Positions 36,148 to 64,000 of a DNA stretch of 64,000 bases are shown here, piece after piece. The position numbers and the translations under genes were made by a program. The DNA comes from Ensifer oleiphilus (GTDB lineage: Bacteria; Pseudomonadota; Alphaproteobacteria; Rhizobiales; Rhizobiaceae). How positions within the stretch are numbered: position 1 is the first letter of the stretch; each line of letters opens with the position of its first letter. The stretch is taken from the NCBI RefSeq assembly GCF_013371465.1, contig NZ_JABWDU010000001.1, positions 372,001 to 436,000 of the forward strand, written 5' to 3'. A model generated the notes under the pieces. That model ran no database searches and was not told where the DNA came from. It worked only from the letters and a program-made list of their open reading frames with translations.

Positions 36148-36203
36148 TGTGCACCAGATTGAATCGCAACCCCTTGGGAGTGGGGTTCACCGGAGGAAGG
36201 TCC

Positions 36204-59782: not shown

Positions 59783-60071
59783 CGTTCGGCTTCCTTGAAA
59801 TGGACCTCTTGCCAGCCGCTCGTTCGCAGCAAGGCGCGCTGGCGTTCGGCCAGCTTCAGACTTTCATCCCGCTACAGTGATCATTTCTTTGAAGGAAAAT
59901 GGTGCCGCTTACGGGCATTGAAGTGTTCTATATCGCGAAATCACCGCATCTCGTCAAGCATGCGAGGCGTTGAAAGAAAAGGCACTTCTTGTCTTACGGG
60001 CTCTCACGCTCTATCGTCCGAACTTAGGCCATACCAAATCTAGGGGTGGATTAAAAGGTGGATGGGAAGTG

Positions 60072-61262
60072 ATGCGCTCGCTCAACAAACTAACCGCTGT
60101 TGCCGTTAAGAACGCGCCGACGGGTAAGTATTCGGACGGCGGTGGACTTTGGTTGCACAAGCGTGAGGACGGCGGGGCGCAATGGATATTGCGCGTGAAC
60201 GTCCATGGGCGACGACGCGAAATGGGGCTCGGCTCTGCCTTGGATGTCTCGTTGAAGGAGGCACGCGAAGCCGCTGAGCGTTGGCGGGCGCTGGTGAGAA
60301 GCGGTCTGGATCCGATCAAAGAGCGCCAACGCCAGCGACGAGAGGCGGCGCGTAATCTTCATTGTCTTGATGACATCGCGCGCGATGCTTTCGAGAGCCG
60401 AAAGGCCGAGCTGAAAGGCGATGGAATTCCTGGCCGCTGGTTCAGCCCACTGGAAATCCACGTTCTTCCTAGCCTCGGAAAAGTACCGGTTGTCGACATA
60501 GATCAGACTGACATCCGCGACGTGCTCGCGCCGATCTGGCATAGCAAAGCGGAGACCGCACGAAAGGCTCTAAATCGACTGGCCATCTGCTTGAAGCACG
60601 CTGCGGCTCTGGGGCTGAATGTTGACTTGCAGGCAACAGACAAGGCGCGCGCGCTCCTCGGCAAGCAAAGGCACAAAGCCGAGAACATCCCGGCGATGCC
60701 CTGGCGGGACGTCCCGGGCTACTATGCTTCCCTCTCGGATGGCACAGTTACCCACCTTGCACTGCGTCTACTCATTCTGACCGGCGTTCGGTCCGGCCCT
60801 CTTCGCTTCTTGCACGAAGAGCAGATCAACGGTGACGTTTGGACCATACCCGGTGAGGCCATGAAGGGCCGGAAGGGGGCAACAGCCGATTTCCGTGTTC
60901 CTCTGTCGGATGCTGCCCTTGCGGTGATAGAGCAGGCCCGTAGGCACGCGCGGGATGGATTCCTCTTCCCCAGTCTCCGGAAAGGCGTGATTTCGGACGC
61001 CACCATGTCGCGGCTAATGGAGCGTGCTGGCATGGAAGCTCGTCCTCATGGATTTCGATCGAGCCTACGCGATTGGATCGCCGAGGCCACGGAGACCCCC
61101 CATGACATAGCCGAGACCACGCTCGGCCATGTAGTCGGCGGCGCAGTGGAACGAGCCTATCGGCGCACAGACTTCCTTGAGCAGCGTCGCAAGCTGATGG
61201 AGCGATGGTCGCGGTATGTCACAGGCGAGAGCGGGACTGTCGTCAAGCTCGCGAGGGGGTGA
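60072..61262 (+). CDS. Tyrosine site-specific integrase, P4-type
   Basis: The 396-residue recombinase has a DUF4102-like N-terminal domain (MRSLNKLTAVAVKNAPTGKYSDGGGLWL), a core-binding region (about 95-190) and the catalytic domain. Arg240 in LTGVRSG, His326-x-x-Arg329 in HGFRS, His353 in LGHVVG and Tyr363 in AYRRTD make the full catalytic set. It would integrate and excise the element. ATG 60072 begins the family-typical N terminus; a longer frame to 59970 is rejected. The gene directly downstream begins 4 bases after the stop. Confidence 0.93.
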   Translation: MRSLNKLTAVAVKNAPTGKYSDGGGLWLHKREDGGAQWILRVNVHGRRREMGLGSALDVSLKEAREAAERWRALVRSGLDPIKERQRQRREAARNLHCLDDIARDAFESRKAELKGDGIPGRWFSPLEIHVLPSLGKVPVVDIDQTDIRDVLAPIWHSKAETARKALNRLAICLKHAAALGLNVDLQATDKARALLGKQRHKAENIPAMPWRDVPGYYASLSDGTVTHLALRLLILTGVRSGPLRFLHEEQINGDVWTIPGEAMKGRKGATADFRVPLSDAALAVIEQARRHARDGFLFPSLRKGVISDATMSRLMERAGMEARPHGFRSSLRDWIAEATETPHDIAETTLGHVVGGAVERAYRRTDFLEQRRKLMERWSRYVTGESGTVVKLARG

Positions 61263-61265
61263 GTT

Positions 61266-62231
61266 GTGGGCGATAGCAAGGGCGGGAGCAGGCGACCTTT
61301 AAATGATCGATTTCCCAGGACCGAAATTATCGGGCGTGATTTCTGGGAGATACCTCCAGACGACGCTCGCGAAATGTTCTCGCACCTGCGGCACTCATCG
61401 TCACAGGGCCAGACGGCGGTTCTGCTTCAGCGCCCATCATGGGAGTGCGACGATATGTTGGAGTTTCCTGAGCAGCCGGAGTTGGAAACGGTTTCATCCT
61501 ATTTGCGTTCGGGAGTCGCCCTACACGAACTCGCCGACGTGGCACCAGGCGTTGAACCGGATCAAAAATCTAACGGAATATCGGCCCGACAGCTCAAAAT
61601 TTTCGCATCCGACGAATTTCTCTCCGAGTGTATGCGGGTGCTCGAAGCGCACGGCTGGATGAAACCTGACTTTCGTTTGACTGATACACTGCTCGATCAA
61701 CTTATCGAAGCGCTAGGCTCCGAAACTTTATCGGACGCGCATGCTCGGTATGGGGAAAACTGGGATGCATATCTTCTTGAGATTGCTGCAGTTCGCTTCG
61801 CAAGGCCATTTAGCCGACGGTGGTACGCGGCCAATATGTATTCGCTGTACTATGCCCATCAAGACGACTTTCGGCTGGGTTATCTCTGGAGCGAGTATCA
61901 AGCAAAAATGCGCCACGAGAGTTCTGCGTTGAAACACGAACAGTTTGTGCAGAAGAACAGGGAGAGCGGAAAAAAGGGAGGACAAGGTTGGAAAAAAGCG
62001 GAGCGGTATGCGGTACTGGATCGGCTTGCGGACGCTGAGTTTACGAAATTGCGCTACCCCGGCGACAAAGAACTGCGCAAGTGCGCACAGCGATTGGCGC
62101 GGCAACATGATGCCAAGGTCGAGGATAAGTTGTTCGTTCAGAATGGGATCGACCTGAGCCTCAAATGGTTCGACGAGTGGTTGGCCGATTATAGAACGAG
62201 AAAAAGGCTGGAAACACAGACGGTTAAGTGA
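61266..62231 (+). CDS. Unknown element protein, 321 residues
   Basis: The start is GTG 61266, with GAGGGGGTGA before it, four bases from the integrase stop, so it is co-transcribed. The protein is acidic in the middle (LPEL, EALGSETLSDAHARYG) and strongly basic near 230-250 (KKGGQGWKKAERYAVL). I see no catalytic motif and do not recognise it. The position suggests a role tied to integration, excision or element control. Confidence 0.65.
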   Translation: MGDSKGGSRRPLNDRFPRTEIIGRDFWEIPPDDAREMFSHLRHSSSQGQTAVLLQRPSWECDDMLEFPEQPELETVSSYLRSGVALHELADVAPGVEPDQKSNGISARQLKIFASDEFLSECMRVLEAHGWMKPDFRLTDTLLDQLIEALGSETLSDAHARYGENWDAYLLEIAAVRFARPFSRRWYAANMYSLYYAHQDDFRLGYLWSEYQAKMRHESSALKHEQFVQKNRESGKKGGQGWKKAERYAVLDRLADAEFTKLRYPGDKELRKCAQRLARQHDAKVEDKLFVQNGIDLSLKWFDEWLADYRTRKRLETQTVK

Positions 62232-62334
62232 GATCAAGCCAGGGCTTTGAGTTAAAAACGGGCAAGAACCGGCGGTTCCATTGCCTATGCCGCAATATCA
62301 TTCATCTCGTCGCAACAAACATCGAGATGAAGCA

Positions 62335-62532
62335 ATGGAAATCAAAGATCCACTTCTTACCGTGCGCGAAAGCGCGGAGGTCTTGCAAATCAGCGTCCCA
62401 ACGTTTTGGCGCCGGGTCGCGGATGGGACAGTACCTCGACCCTTGAAAATTGGCTCTCTCTCTCGCTGGCCTCGCTCGGAAATCATGACCGTCATCGAGC
62501 ACGCCAAAGCCTCGCGTTCCAATATGGCGTAG
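62335..62532 (+). CDS. AlpA-family / excisionase-like DNA-binding protein
   Basis: The 65-residue protein MEIKDPLLTVRESAEVLQIS... has the MerR-like helix-turn-helix of AlpA/excisionase proteins: TVRESAEVLQISVPTFWRRVADGTVPRP then RWPRSEI. Such proteins control integrase or satellite genes and direct excision. ATG 62335 is preceded by GAGATGA. It is the usual second regulator in P4-type islands, though here an unknown gene separates it from the integrase. Confidence 0.85.
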   Translation: MEIKDPLLTVRESAEVLQISVPTFWRRVADGTVPRPLKIGSLSRWPRSEIMTVIEHAKASRSNMA

Positions 62533-62541
62533 GGGGAAGCC

Positions 62542-62742
62542 ATGTCATTACAAAAGAAAAACCCGGCTGCGCGGGCAGGCGCAGTCCGGGTCAACGTTCT
62601 CGCTAGTGTCAAAACCAGCTCCTCCAATCTTACCGAACAGCGTTCTTTCAGTCTATCCGTGTGTAACTGTTCGTTCGGAAGCGCGCCGCGCAACCGGACA
62701 TGTGCGCGAGTTGCCCTCCTTTGGTTCAGGGGAGGCATATGA
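62542..62742 (+). CDS. Possible small element protein, 66 residues
   Basis: MSLQKKNPAARAGAVRVNVL... begins at ATG 62542 with AGGGGGAAGCC in front, a good ribosome site. There is no recognised domain, it overlaps the next gene's start, and a strong hairpin lies within its first codons. It may be a leader peptide or spurious. Confidence 0.35.
   Translation: MSLQKKNPAARAGAVRVNVLASVKTSSSNLTEQRSFSLSVCNCSFGSAPRNRTCARVALLWFRGGI
62555..62590 (-). terminator. Minus-strand intrinsic terminator inside the element
   Basis: The stem CCCGG+CTGCGC (62562-62572) pairs with GCGCAG+(T)CCGGG (62579-62590), loop of 6. The T run (complement of AAAAA at 62557-62561 and the A-rich stretch before) is on the minus-strand side, so it fits termination of a leftward RNA although all nearby genes run rightward. 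Confidence 0.6.
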
Positions 62743-63029
62743 GCAAGATTTTCATAACAATACGGCTGCTTCCTGACGGGGCGTCTCACACACTGTTTGG
62801 TCGGGTCGCCTGGGCACTGGAGCAGTTAATAGACGCAGGAAGTGTGGGGTGCACTCCAGTTACGCATCCTGGGCCGCGCTGGAGCTCCTACGTGCATCTT
62901 CTCCGCATACGAGGCCTAGAAGTCGACACACTGAGGGAGAGCCACGGAGGGCAGTTCCCGGGCACACACGCACGTTATGTACTGTGCTCGCCGGTCGAGG
63001 TTCTCCAGAGCTGGAGGGATCGAAGGTGA
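62739..63029 (+). CDS. Winged-helix-domain protein of the element
   Basis: The 96-residue protein includes THPGPRWSSYVHLLRIRGLEVDTLRESHGGQFPGTHARYVL, the pattern of small winged-helix proteins common in rhizobial prophage islands. It likely binds DNA. ATG 62739 has GGGGAGGC upstream. Its stop overlaps the GTG start of the following gene (63026-63029). Confidence 0.75.
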   Translation: MSKIFITIRLLPDGASHTLFGRVAWALEQLIDAGSVGCTPVTHPGPRWSSYVHLLRIRGLEVDTLRESHGGQFPGTHARYVLCSPVEVLQSWRDRR

Positions 63030-63277
63030 CCGATCCAAAGCGCATTGCCGAGAAGAAGGCGGTTGCAGTTTGGTTCTGGGATTGGCGGCCCGCTTCCATC
63101 GCCCCCTCGAACCGTTCCAGAGCGATGCAGGAACAAGGTGCTCCACAAAGTTGTGGGTCATCGCCATCGCATGTCGTGAACTTCCTCAAGGCGAAATACG
63201 ACCTGAAGCCTTGGAGGCCTGCGAAGCCTGTAAACCAGCGCAAGAGTATAGCGGCGAGCGGGATGGCCGCTAACTGA
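63026..63277 (+). CDS. Small unknown element protein, 83 residues
   Basis: The GTG at 63026 overlaps the previous stop by 4 bases and the TGA at 63275 overlaps the next start by one base, so translational coupling on both sides supports it. The sequence VTDPKRIAEKKAVAVWFWDW... is rich in Trp and basic residues, with no recognised domain. It may help the primase or replication of the element. Confidence 0.6.
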   Translation: MTDPKRIAEKKAVAVWFWDWRPASIAPSNRSRAMQEQGAPQSCGSSPSHVVNFLKAKYDLKPWRPAKPVNQRKSIAASGMAAN

Positions 63278-64000
63278 TGGGAGCGTTTGCAGAGTGGCAA
63301 CCTCGATACGCTGAACATGGCATTGCTACGTTCCCCGTCGACATTCTTGATGACGGTCGGAAAAAGCCAGCCGTTGGCGGCTATCTCAAGCTGGGGGCTC
63401 AGTACAGCTCCCAGCTCACATTGAAATTCGGCGGACATAATGCTCTCGGGCTGGCATGCCGCAGAAACAAAATCACCGTGCTCGATGTGGATACCCCCGA
63501 CGAACGCGTCTTGGCTGACGCAATCAGCAGGCACGGGGTCACGCCCTTCATCGTCCGCAGCGGGTCAGGCAACTGGCAGGCTTGGTACAAAAACAGCGGA
63601 GAGCGTCGCCGCATTCGCCCAGACGCGCACGTTCCAATTGATATCCTCGGCGACGGATATGTGGTGGCCCCGCCATCGCTTGCGCGCAAGGGTAGATACC
63701 AGCTCGTGCAAGGCAGCATGGACGACCTCGACCGCCTGCCGCCGATGAAACTTGTTATCGACACCATCGAAACGCCGAAACCGAAAGCGCTAGCCAGCAC
63801 TCTCCGCGAAGGGGACGGCCGGAACAATTCGCTCTTTCATCGCGCGCTTCGATCCGCCCGCCATGCCAAATCCGAAGAGGAGCTTATTCAGATGATAGCT
63901 CATGCTAACCAGCAGTTCGCGGAGCCTCTGCTAATGGACGAGGTGCTAGGCGTTTCACACTCGGCGTGGGGATACAAGGAAAAGGGCCGCCTTATGGTTT
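63277..64000 (+). CDS. Bifunctional DNA primase/polymerase (PrimPol), N-terminal part
   Basis: The frame runs off the right edge after about 241 codons. The PrimPol fold is indicated by motif I LDVDTPDE (Asp70, Asp72), a second motif region SGSGNWQAWYKNSGERR (a Gln, residue 101, where many relatives have His), and motif III PIDILGDGYVVAPPS (Asp122). These proteins prime and start replication of plasmids, satellites or islands. A C-terminal helicase or AAA part may follow beyond the window. ATG 63277 overlaps the previous stop (TGATG). Confidence 0.8.
   Translation, partial: MGAFAEWQPRYAEHGIATFPVDILDDGRKKPAVGGYLKLGAQYSSQLTLKFGGHNALGLACRRNKITVLDVDTPDERVLADAISRHGVTPFIVRSGSGNWQAWYKNSGERRRIRPDAHVPIDILGDGYVVAPPSLARKGRYQLVQGSMDDLDRLPPMKLVIDTIETPKPKALASTLREGDGRNNSLFHRALRSARHAKSEEELIQMIAHANQQFAEPLLMDEVLGVSHSAWGYKEKGRLMV

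Follow-up and report, generated by a model that had tools for sequence, protein, structure and literature searches.

P4-like satellites join an integrase, an AlpA-like regulator, and a primase to defense cargo; their components are psu, delta, sid, AlpA (PF05930), epsilon, alpha (PF03288), and the integrase (excerpts of PMC8628076). In Sinorhizobium meliloti, islands outnumber prophages in the tRNA genes 008, 013, and 010, and tRNA gene 008, which is tRNA-Thr(CGU), is already listed as an island site (excerpts of PMC11476347). Lamassu defense systems are composed of LmuA, LmuB, and LmuC and act by abortive infection, with LmuB as the likely sensor and LmuA as the effector (excerpts of PMC10586767). 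Here we analyzed a stretch of 64,000 nucleotides from Ensifer oleiphilus (GCF_013371465.1, contig NZ_JABWDU010000001.1, positions 372001-436000 of 1.41 Mb; hereafter the window), in a genome of 6.76 Mb in 32 contigs, and followed an integrated element at its right edge to the far end. Of 64 plasmid records matching the neighboring kdpD gene, 54 belong to Sinorhizobium, with 77.3-77.9% identity in the eight matches listed, which makes the host a relative of that genus. We consider it likely that this element is a 21.2-kb integrative defense island of the tRNA-Thr(CGU) gene with a phage-derived copying module and two defense systems; in type, it represents a variation on the mobile defense islands already known. 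It resembles the P4-like satellites in its integrase, AlpA-like regulator, primase, and defense cargo but differs in having a PrimPol without a helicase and a host outside the Enterobacterales, as far as the excerpts of PMC8628076 go. The tRNA-Thr(CGU) site is common to this island and the S. meliloti islands, whereas Lamassu, PrimPol, and strain AK57, the host of the sister element described below, do not appear in the main text of PMC11476347. No published title or abstract opening found in a literature search described this element.

Insertion site and boundaries of the island

The initial annotation had described, from the letters of the window, a rightward satellite-like element that starts at 60072 and is cut by the window edge, and had expected defense or phage-parasite genes beyond its primase. 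The genome continues beyond position 64000, and the element ends 17.1 kb past the window edge (positions follow the window numbering continued past 64000, equal to the contig position minus 372000; Table 1). The direct repeat AATGGTGCCGCTTACG was found at both ends: the left copy lies 174 bp upstream of the start assigned previously, the right copy falls within the 3' end of the tRNA-Thr(CGU) gene, and the distance from repeat start to repeat start is 21,208 bp. Its last 14 bases occur once in each of the two element stretches, L002 and L003. The far-end repeat bore out the idea of an integrated element truncated by the window, and the anticipated cargo was recognized past 64000, where genes for type I restriction-modification are followed by a complete Lamassu system. 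The G+C content falls to 0.52 in parts of the element compared to approximately 0.61 in the left flank, the lower values being patchy rather than continuous.

Comparison with the genus revealed unoccupied sites. All 16 of 16 genus genomes were matched by a right-flank DNA query of 801 bases in which the repeat begins at base 107; in the 15 congeners, the match starts at query bases 90-107 and thus extends no more than 17 bp into the element side. To the left of the left repeat, the chromosome can be aligned for hundreds of bases with that of two congeners, whose DNA then enters the tRNA gene directly. Short junction alignments identified empty sites, with the left flank of the window joined to the tRNA gene, in six of the 15 congeners (L016-L021); the other nine carry different DNA left of the tRNA gene. 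At E<=1e-60, the integrase was detected in one of the 16 genus genomes, namely the carrier. The sequence features of a tRNA-integrated mobile genomic island were found: an integrase, direct repeats at both ends, one of them in the 3' end of a tRNA gene, and empty sites in relatives. The integration and its boundaries, like the gene content and the defense families presented below, appear directly in the DNA and its translations.

Two side observations concern the same tRNA gene. In the congener G071 (C1:682231-722303), it holds a putatively prophage-like element of approximately 40 kb, at whose far end 59 bp of the tRNA 3' part are repeated; an integrase-like sequence follows this second copy 40 kb away, and the long open reading frames (ORFs) between the copies were judged phage-like by reading rather than by family search. 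The T-stem of the tRNA occurs among congeners in two versions, GCAG/CTGC and CGTG/CACG, both paired (L016, L017, L020, and L021 versus L018, L019, and others), perhaps the trace of earlier integrations in which the incoming DNA supplied its own tRNA 3' end. The idea that the element supplied the T-arm of the carrier tRNA, raised by two differing congeners, was dropped as unneeded because, across all 16 genomes, empty-site congeners with the same T-arm exist (L018 and L019).

Defense cargo

The hsdR, hsdM, and hsdS genes of the type I restriction-modification system are all present with open frames, and the model PRK11448 was matched at 1552 bits (cut-off 729). The Lamassu operon lies at the right end, where the lmuB stop is 264 bp short of the repeat. 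It encodes an SMC/Rad50-like LmuB, the middle component LmuC, and the effector LmuA with a C-terminal domain of the ABC-three-component (ABC-3C) type, the composition expected of a Lamassu system. The matched models were PDLC03868, PDLC03876, and PDLC03858, and the operon contains the ABC-3C domains CTD2 (E 3e-78) and MComp1 (4.7e-11; PF20278 and PF20289) and a zinc-hook-like CPIC motif in LmuB. The putative flavin adenine dinucleotide (FAD) domain of LmuA was called from the PADLOC match together with a motif rich in glycine; the match of its N-terminus to DAO (E 3.1e-5) scored 24.1 bits, below the cut-off of 27.9. The system may be of the Lamassu-FMO type, and nothing was found that would place it outside the Lamassu/ABC-3C family. 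At E<=1e-40, LmuA was detected in nine of 297 genomes of the family (Rhizobiaceae), including the carrier; because the other eight proteins are 30-34% identical, they represent other Lamassu loci rather than sister elements. Among plasmids there were four LmuA matches, one of them the S. meliloti Ak57 element; at two of the other three, which were inspected, the incomplete PLSDB tables list no annotated integrase near LmuA.

Between the two systems lies a gene whose start overlaps the hsdS stop. Its product had no family in Pfam, NCBIfam, or PADLOC and matched, weakly (E 0.0015), only a PHROG of unknown function, but contains SHWDWDH and HHG motifs that we presume to mark a metallo-beta-lactamase fold. 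Relatives of this metallo-hydrolase at E<=1e-20 were found in two of 385 genomes of the class, one being the carrier, and in six plasmid records. At the three plasmid places that were read, the neighbors of these relatives include genes for VapC and a TIR-domain protein, for SIR2 with an ATP-binding protein, and for a patatin-like protein, and this company suggests a defense role, which would make the protein a candidate for a so far unnamed defense component. The short ORF at 74392-74661 (L002:16392-16661), between the hydrolase gene and lmuA, has a weak likeness to the end of HNH_2 (E 0.0065, below cut-off) and is possibly the remnant of an HNH gene.

Table 1. Features of the island and palindrome copies in the Ak57 element. 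L002 and L003 are the element stretches, L007 is the Ak57 stretch.
Feature	Position	Strand	Support or remark
Left attachment repeat AATGGTGCCGCTTACG (16 bp)	59898-59913		Read directly
Tyrosine integrase, 396 aa (Arm-DNA-bind_3, Phage_int_M, Phage_integrase)	60072-61262	+	PF13356, PF22022, PF00589, all above cut-off; PHROG integrase E 8.3e-37
ORF2, 321 aa	61266-62231	+	No known family
AlpA/excisionase-like HTH_17 protein	62281-62532	+	28.4 bits, cut-off 27
Winged-helix protein (HTH_91)	62739-63029	+	PF22324, E 1.4e-33
Small ORF, 83 aa + stop	63026-63277	+	Overlaps both neighbors
PrimPol + PriCT_1, 332 aa	63277-64275 (L002:5277-6275)	+	Open frame; window part to 64000
Conserved non-coding motif close to TGCAACAATATAACTAGACAC	64302-64321 (L002:6302-6321)	+	Behind the PrimPol stop
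Three leftward ORFs	64489-64800, 64955-65239, 65211-65744	-	Without family
XRE control protein	65874-66146	+	
HsdR, 1140 aa	66542-69964	+	REase_I E 3.4e-245
HsdM, 511 aa	70030-71565	+	MTase_I E 1.7e-192
HsdS, 454 aa	71562-72926	+	Specificity_I E 2.9e-111
Metallo-hydrolase, 415 aa	72923-74170 (L002:14923-16170)	+	Overlaps hsdS stop
LmuA, 800 aa	74740-77142	+	PDLC model E 8.6e-240 (PADLOC)
LmuC, 214 aa	77144-77788	+	PADLOC E 1.5e-65
LmuB, 1018 aa	77785-80841	+	PADLOC E 7.9e-257 (946/1018 residues scanned)
Palindrome copies, island	64422, 64896, 66234, 74207, ~80936 (L002 6422, 6896, 8234, 16207; L003 ~2936)		
Palindrome copies, Ak57	L007 24143, 34097, 42514		Exact
Right attachment repeat AATGGTGCCGCTTACG	81106-81121 (L003:3106-3121)		Within 3' end of tRNA-Thr(CGU); read directly
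tRNA-Thr, anticodon CGT (CGU)	81108-81183	-	ARAGORN

A sister element in S. meliloti Ak57

The best match of the integrase region of the island in the plasmid DNA collection was an element of S. meliloti Ak57 (CP090106.1, ~551.3-574.1 kb). The record, 3.7 Mb long and titled plasmid pSymB, is presumably chromosomal, judging by its size and genes. This element also sits at tRNA-Thr(CGT), beside a nitronate monooxygenase gene, and carries the core of the attachment (att) repeat; right of the island's tRNA, the translated gene reads as a nitronate monooxygenase too. Identical residues amount to 352 of 394 for the integrase (89%), 79 of 96 for the winged-helix protein (82%; the gene is present but unannotated in Ak57), 623 of 731 for LmuA (85%), 173 of 213 for LmuC (81%), and 771 of the 946 compared for LmuB (82%), and the alpA gene is 74.5% identical at the DNA level. 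The lmuA gene of Ak57 is annotated too short, since tblastn covers all 800 residues.

Common to both elements are thus the tRNA-Thr site, the att core, the integrase, the AlpA-like and winged-helix proteins, the Lamassu trio at the right end, and a palindrome described below. In contrast, the ORF2 and primase slots of the Ak57 element hold unrelated genes, with no PrimPol, and its interior contains HNH, PsyrT-type RecQ, and DUF3427 genes and insertion sequence (IS) elements in place of restriction-modification. Two candidate homologues in these slots were rejected: the gene in the ORF2 slot, 24% identical in a forced alignment, reached a best BLASTP E of 0.27, and the 165-aa gene in the primase slot a best E of 0.040. 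Although it comprises only two elements, the pair suggests that the ends are fixed and the middle is exchangeable.

These comparisons bear on the notion of an old chromosomal defense hotspot, in which unrelated pieces accumulated beside the tRNA gene and never formed a single element. The patchwork ancestry of the parts, the small ORFs without family, and the possible HNH remnant fit such a history, but a single pair of direct repeats lies exactly at both synteny breaks, congeners have empty sites, and the same end modules recur at the same tRNA gene in S. meliloti. This account was already disfavored, and we regard it as highly improbable.

The putative replication module and its phage relatives

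The left module has the order integrase, ORF2, AlpA-like protein, winged-helix protein, small ORF, and PrimPol. Pfam matches were obtained for all four proteins named in the initial annotation (integrase, AlpA-type regulator, winged-helix protein, and PrimPol), and the PrimPol frame is unbroken to its stop. The overlapping start and stop codons reported there exist between the winged-helix gene and the small ORF (GTGA, 63026-63029) and between the small ORF and PrimPol (TGATG, 63275-63279), but not between the integrase and ORF2 (stop 61260-61262, GTG start at 61266), the latter a gene left unnamed at the time. The claim of a coherent module was half right: the close relatives of PrimPol lie in phage-type DNA, whereas the integrase region is best matched, in the plasmid collection, by a sister island that lacks PrimPol.

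ORF2 had no match in Pfam, PADLOC, NCBIfam, or PHROGs, and the small ORF had none in Pfam or PHROGs. At E<=1e-10, ORF2 was matched in three of 397 genomes of the order, including the carrier; none of 54 pattern stretches from IMG/VR held a relative. In G618, the ORF2 homologue again lies behind a similar integrase. The homologue in G550 (L035:6429-17115) stands among genes read from their translations as a subtilase-like protease, a resolvase, a cytosine methyltransferase, and a Vsr-like nuclease, and that stretch is a probable further defense island.

PrimPol itself is rare. At E<=1e-10, it was detected in two of 297 family genomes, the carrier and one with 26% identity, and searches sensitive to close relatives identified two loci in GTDB contigs (L013, Sinorhizobium sp. 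8-89, and L014, Rhizobium ruizarguesonis UPM1133) and one in IMG/VR (L008, 2928359186_000003). No match at E 1e-5 was obtained among 50,697 phage records, and a PrimPol profile searched against PDB sequences gave a single match at chance level (E 0.57). The three relatives are 66-77% identical to the island protein in the best segment. Portal protein genes follow in both L008 (E 2.8e-154) and L014 (E 6.3e-242), accompanied by a major head protein gene in L008 (1.4e-80) and a terminase gene in L014 (2e-23); a gene of L008 first read as a terminase matched only a PHROG of unknown function, and this reading was rejected. The winged-helix protein is common to L008 by BLASTP and was also seen by eye in L013 and L014.

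The best match (77%) belongs to the prophage-like region of Sinorhizobium sp. 8-89, where the winged-helix/PrimPol pair follows an integrase different from that of the island. Left of this integrase, AATGGTGCCGCTTACG runs on for over 30 bases into the 3' part of tRNA-Thr, as it does at the island. The region is a putative prophage, its contig ending before any structural gene was seen. The DNA identity between this region and the island is 96%, 91%, and 81% at L002 5300-5399, 5400-5499, and 5500-5599, respectively, and 66.7% over L002 5607-6272. These counts, which replaced a by-eye estimate of nearly identical 300 bases of PrimPol followed by approximately 75%, show a mosaic pattern weaker than that estimate.

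Behind the PrimPol stop, a motif close to TGCAACAATATAACTAGACAC occurs in the island and in all three relatives, in one orientation in the island and L013 and in the opposite one in L008 (L008:4502-4521, minus strand) and L014. It is unique in the carrier genome even with two mismatches allowed and may be an origin or a primase start site. The three phage-type regions thus have PrimPol, the winged-helix protein, and the motif in common with the island, and L013 also the tRNA fragment; they differ in that head and packaging genes follow in L008 and L014 and that L013 has another integrase. No defense genes were noticed on reading these stretches, where no PADLOC search was made.

Given these relatives, the island could be a true phage satellite that a helper, most likely a temperate phage with the same PrimPol module and tRNA-Thr site, mobilizes and packages, while its own primase replicates it and its defense genes exclude competing phages. 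The satellite-like left module and the size of the island agree with this scheme, as do the winged-helix protein, PrimPol, and motif held in common with temperate phages and the prophage-like DNA at the same tRNA gene in Sinorhizobium sp. 8-89 and in a congener. On the other hand, no terminase small subunit, capsid-size gene, or other hijack gene was matched among the proteins scanned, the carrier genome has no second copy of this PrimPol and hence no helper prophage bearing it, and the sister element lacks PrimPol altogether, so a satellite of this kind seems doubtful to us.

Alternatively, a temperate prophage may have lost its structural genes and gathered defense genes, leaving a remnant that nothing mobilizes now. 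Its replication genes are indeed closest to those of phages, and the small ORF is frame-shifted relative to the 8-89 prophage-like sequence; yet the integrase region has an S. meliloti island as its best plasmid-collection match, the 8-89 region uses a different integrase, and none of the integrase, PrimPol, hsd, and lmu frames is interrupted. A remnant of this type is therefore unlikely in our judgment.

A palindrome at module borders

A palindromic sequence recurs between the modules of both islands. Across all 6.76 Mb of the genome, its exact form TGTCTCNNNNNGAGACA has just two copies, and these belong to the island (64896 and 66234). L002 contained four matches with at most two mismatches compared to 0.79 expected (one of 200 shuffles reached four), and a fifth near copy at ~80936 was found by direct reading; in the 64-kb window, none was found, with 1.8 expected by chance. 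The Ak57 stretch contained five matches, three of them exact, compared to 1.44 expected, and one of 100 shuffles reached five. Eight copies were aligned and gave the consensus GAAAATGTCTC...GAGACANTTTT; the alignment leaves out the Ak57 matches that have two mismatches, one within the PsyrT gene (28648) and one at 36155. Every one of the eight lies approximately 30-170 bp past the stop of a gene or ORF, and the four that were folded yielded -19.3 to -20.1 kcal/mol (z -1.9 to -4.4).

The simplest reading is that the palindrome is probably a repeated two-way terminator, and a role in cassette exchange is conceivable, given its recurrence at the module borders of both islands. A terminator scan gave no support on its own because it returned 20 sites, two of them palindrome copies, compared to 18.1 expected. 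Several findings speak against a special role. At least one exact TGTCTCNNNNNGAGACA was present in 37 of 297 family genomes compared to 16 of 297 for a reversed control, mostly as single copies with other loops; the exact form with the GTCGT loop occurred in two other genomes (G075 and G157), in an ordinary-looking chromosomal setting in G075; and TGTCTCGTCGNGAGACA was found in eight IMG/VR stretches. The pattern also occurs outside islands of this kind.

Class of the element and proposed life cycle

We compared the gene content with the known classes of mobile elements. Of the P4-like components, the integrase was found, the AlpA-like protein matches HTH_17 instead of PF05930, and psu, delta, sid, epsilon, and alpha (PF03288) had no match among the element proteins scanned. 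PHROGs identified no packaging gene among the element sequences of two scans (nine and four sequences), a search that left the hsd and lmu genes aside. Phage-inducible chromosomal islands (PICI) and their capsid-forming kind (cfPICI) are marked by a packaging or capsid gene of their own and by helper induction. No terminase, portal, capsid, or tail genes of a temperate prophage were matched among the element ORFs scanned, and no relaxase or conjugation family of an integrative and conjugative or mobilizable element was matched in Pfam, a search that does not cover mobilizable elements with a bare oriT only. Neither a capsid, terminase, or capsid-remodeling gene nor a helicase had a match among the proteins scanned. 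Because no packaging, capsid, or relaxase gene was matched, the satellite-like reading of the initial annotation is unproven: the island departs from the P4-like kind but may belong to another kind of satellite.

Some results also weigh against a mobile defense island with a phage-derived copying module. Among the proteins scanned, no helicase, relaxase, or packaging gene was matched, and the genus genomes include a single carrier of this putatively mobile island. The second half of the small ORF shows frame shifts relative to the 8-89 sequence (single-base gaps in the alignment), and for this reason, the ORF may be decayed. The high DNA identity to the 8-89 region is limited to the first 200-300 bases of PrimPol, and no copy of the att core was found in the available stretches of L008 and L014. 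The probable derivation of the module from phages of the same site has the 8-89 region as its one example, and the far end of that region, with any structural genes, is outside the sequence covered. The structure predicted for the PrimPol family from its three phage relatives was too poor for an active-site check, with a predicted local distance difference test (pLDDT) score of 42.1, as was the single-sequence prediction for ORF2 (pLDDT 37.8) for any use; for this reason, no fold search was made for either protein.

For the defense island, which we continue to favor, the following life cycle can be proposed. The tyrosine integrase inserted the island into the 3' end of the tRNA-Thr(CGU) gene, leaving the 16-bp repeat seen at each end, and the AlpA-like protein would probably direct excision. 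After excision, the phage-type winged-helix protein and PrimPol, together with a host or phage helicase, would probably copy the circle, for which the motif that follows the PrimPol stop may serve as the origin. When integrated, the island would equip and protect its host with type I restriction-modification and the Lamassu (ABC-3C) system; by analogy with the Lamassu systems studied in the literature, aberrant DNA would be detected by LmuB, which would then set free LmuA, the presumed FAD-type effector. Temperate phages that integrate at the same tRNA gene were probably the source of the replication module, as the one example of strain 8-89 suggests. The two relatives known so far differ in their interior cargo and retain the integrase, AlpA, winged-helix protein, and Lamassu.

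A broader and quite speculative extension, which we think improbable as a whole, would see a Rhizobiaceae family of tRNA-Thr(CGU) satellites that have the att site and a winged-helix/PrimPol/origin module in common with their helper temperate phages. In such a family, Lamassu would be the fixed guard at the tRNA end, and interior cassettes would be set off by a palindrome that both ends transcription units and offers homology for swaps.

Implications

A guess at the edge of a window has thus become a defined, putatively mobile defense island with both ends. Two relatives lend themselves to comparison with it: a sister island whose ends match but whose cargo differs, and a prophage-like region that has the tRNA fragment and the primase in common with it. 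Together, these comparisons make it testable whether rhizobial defense islands may be mobilized by phages with common replication genes and whether their cargo may be swapped cassette by cassette between fixed ends.

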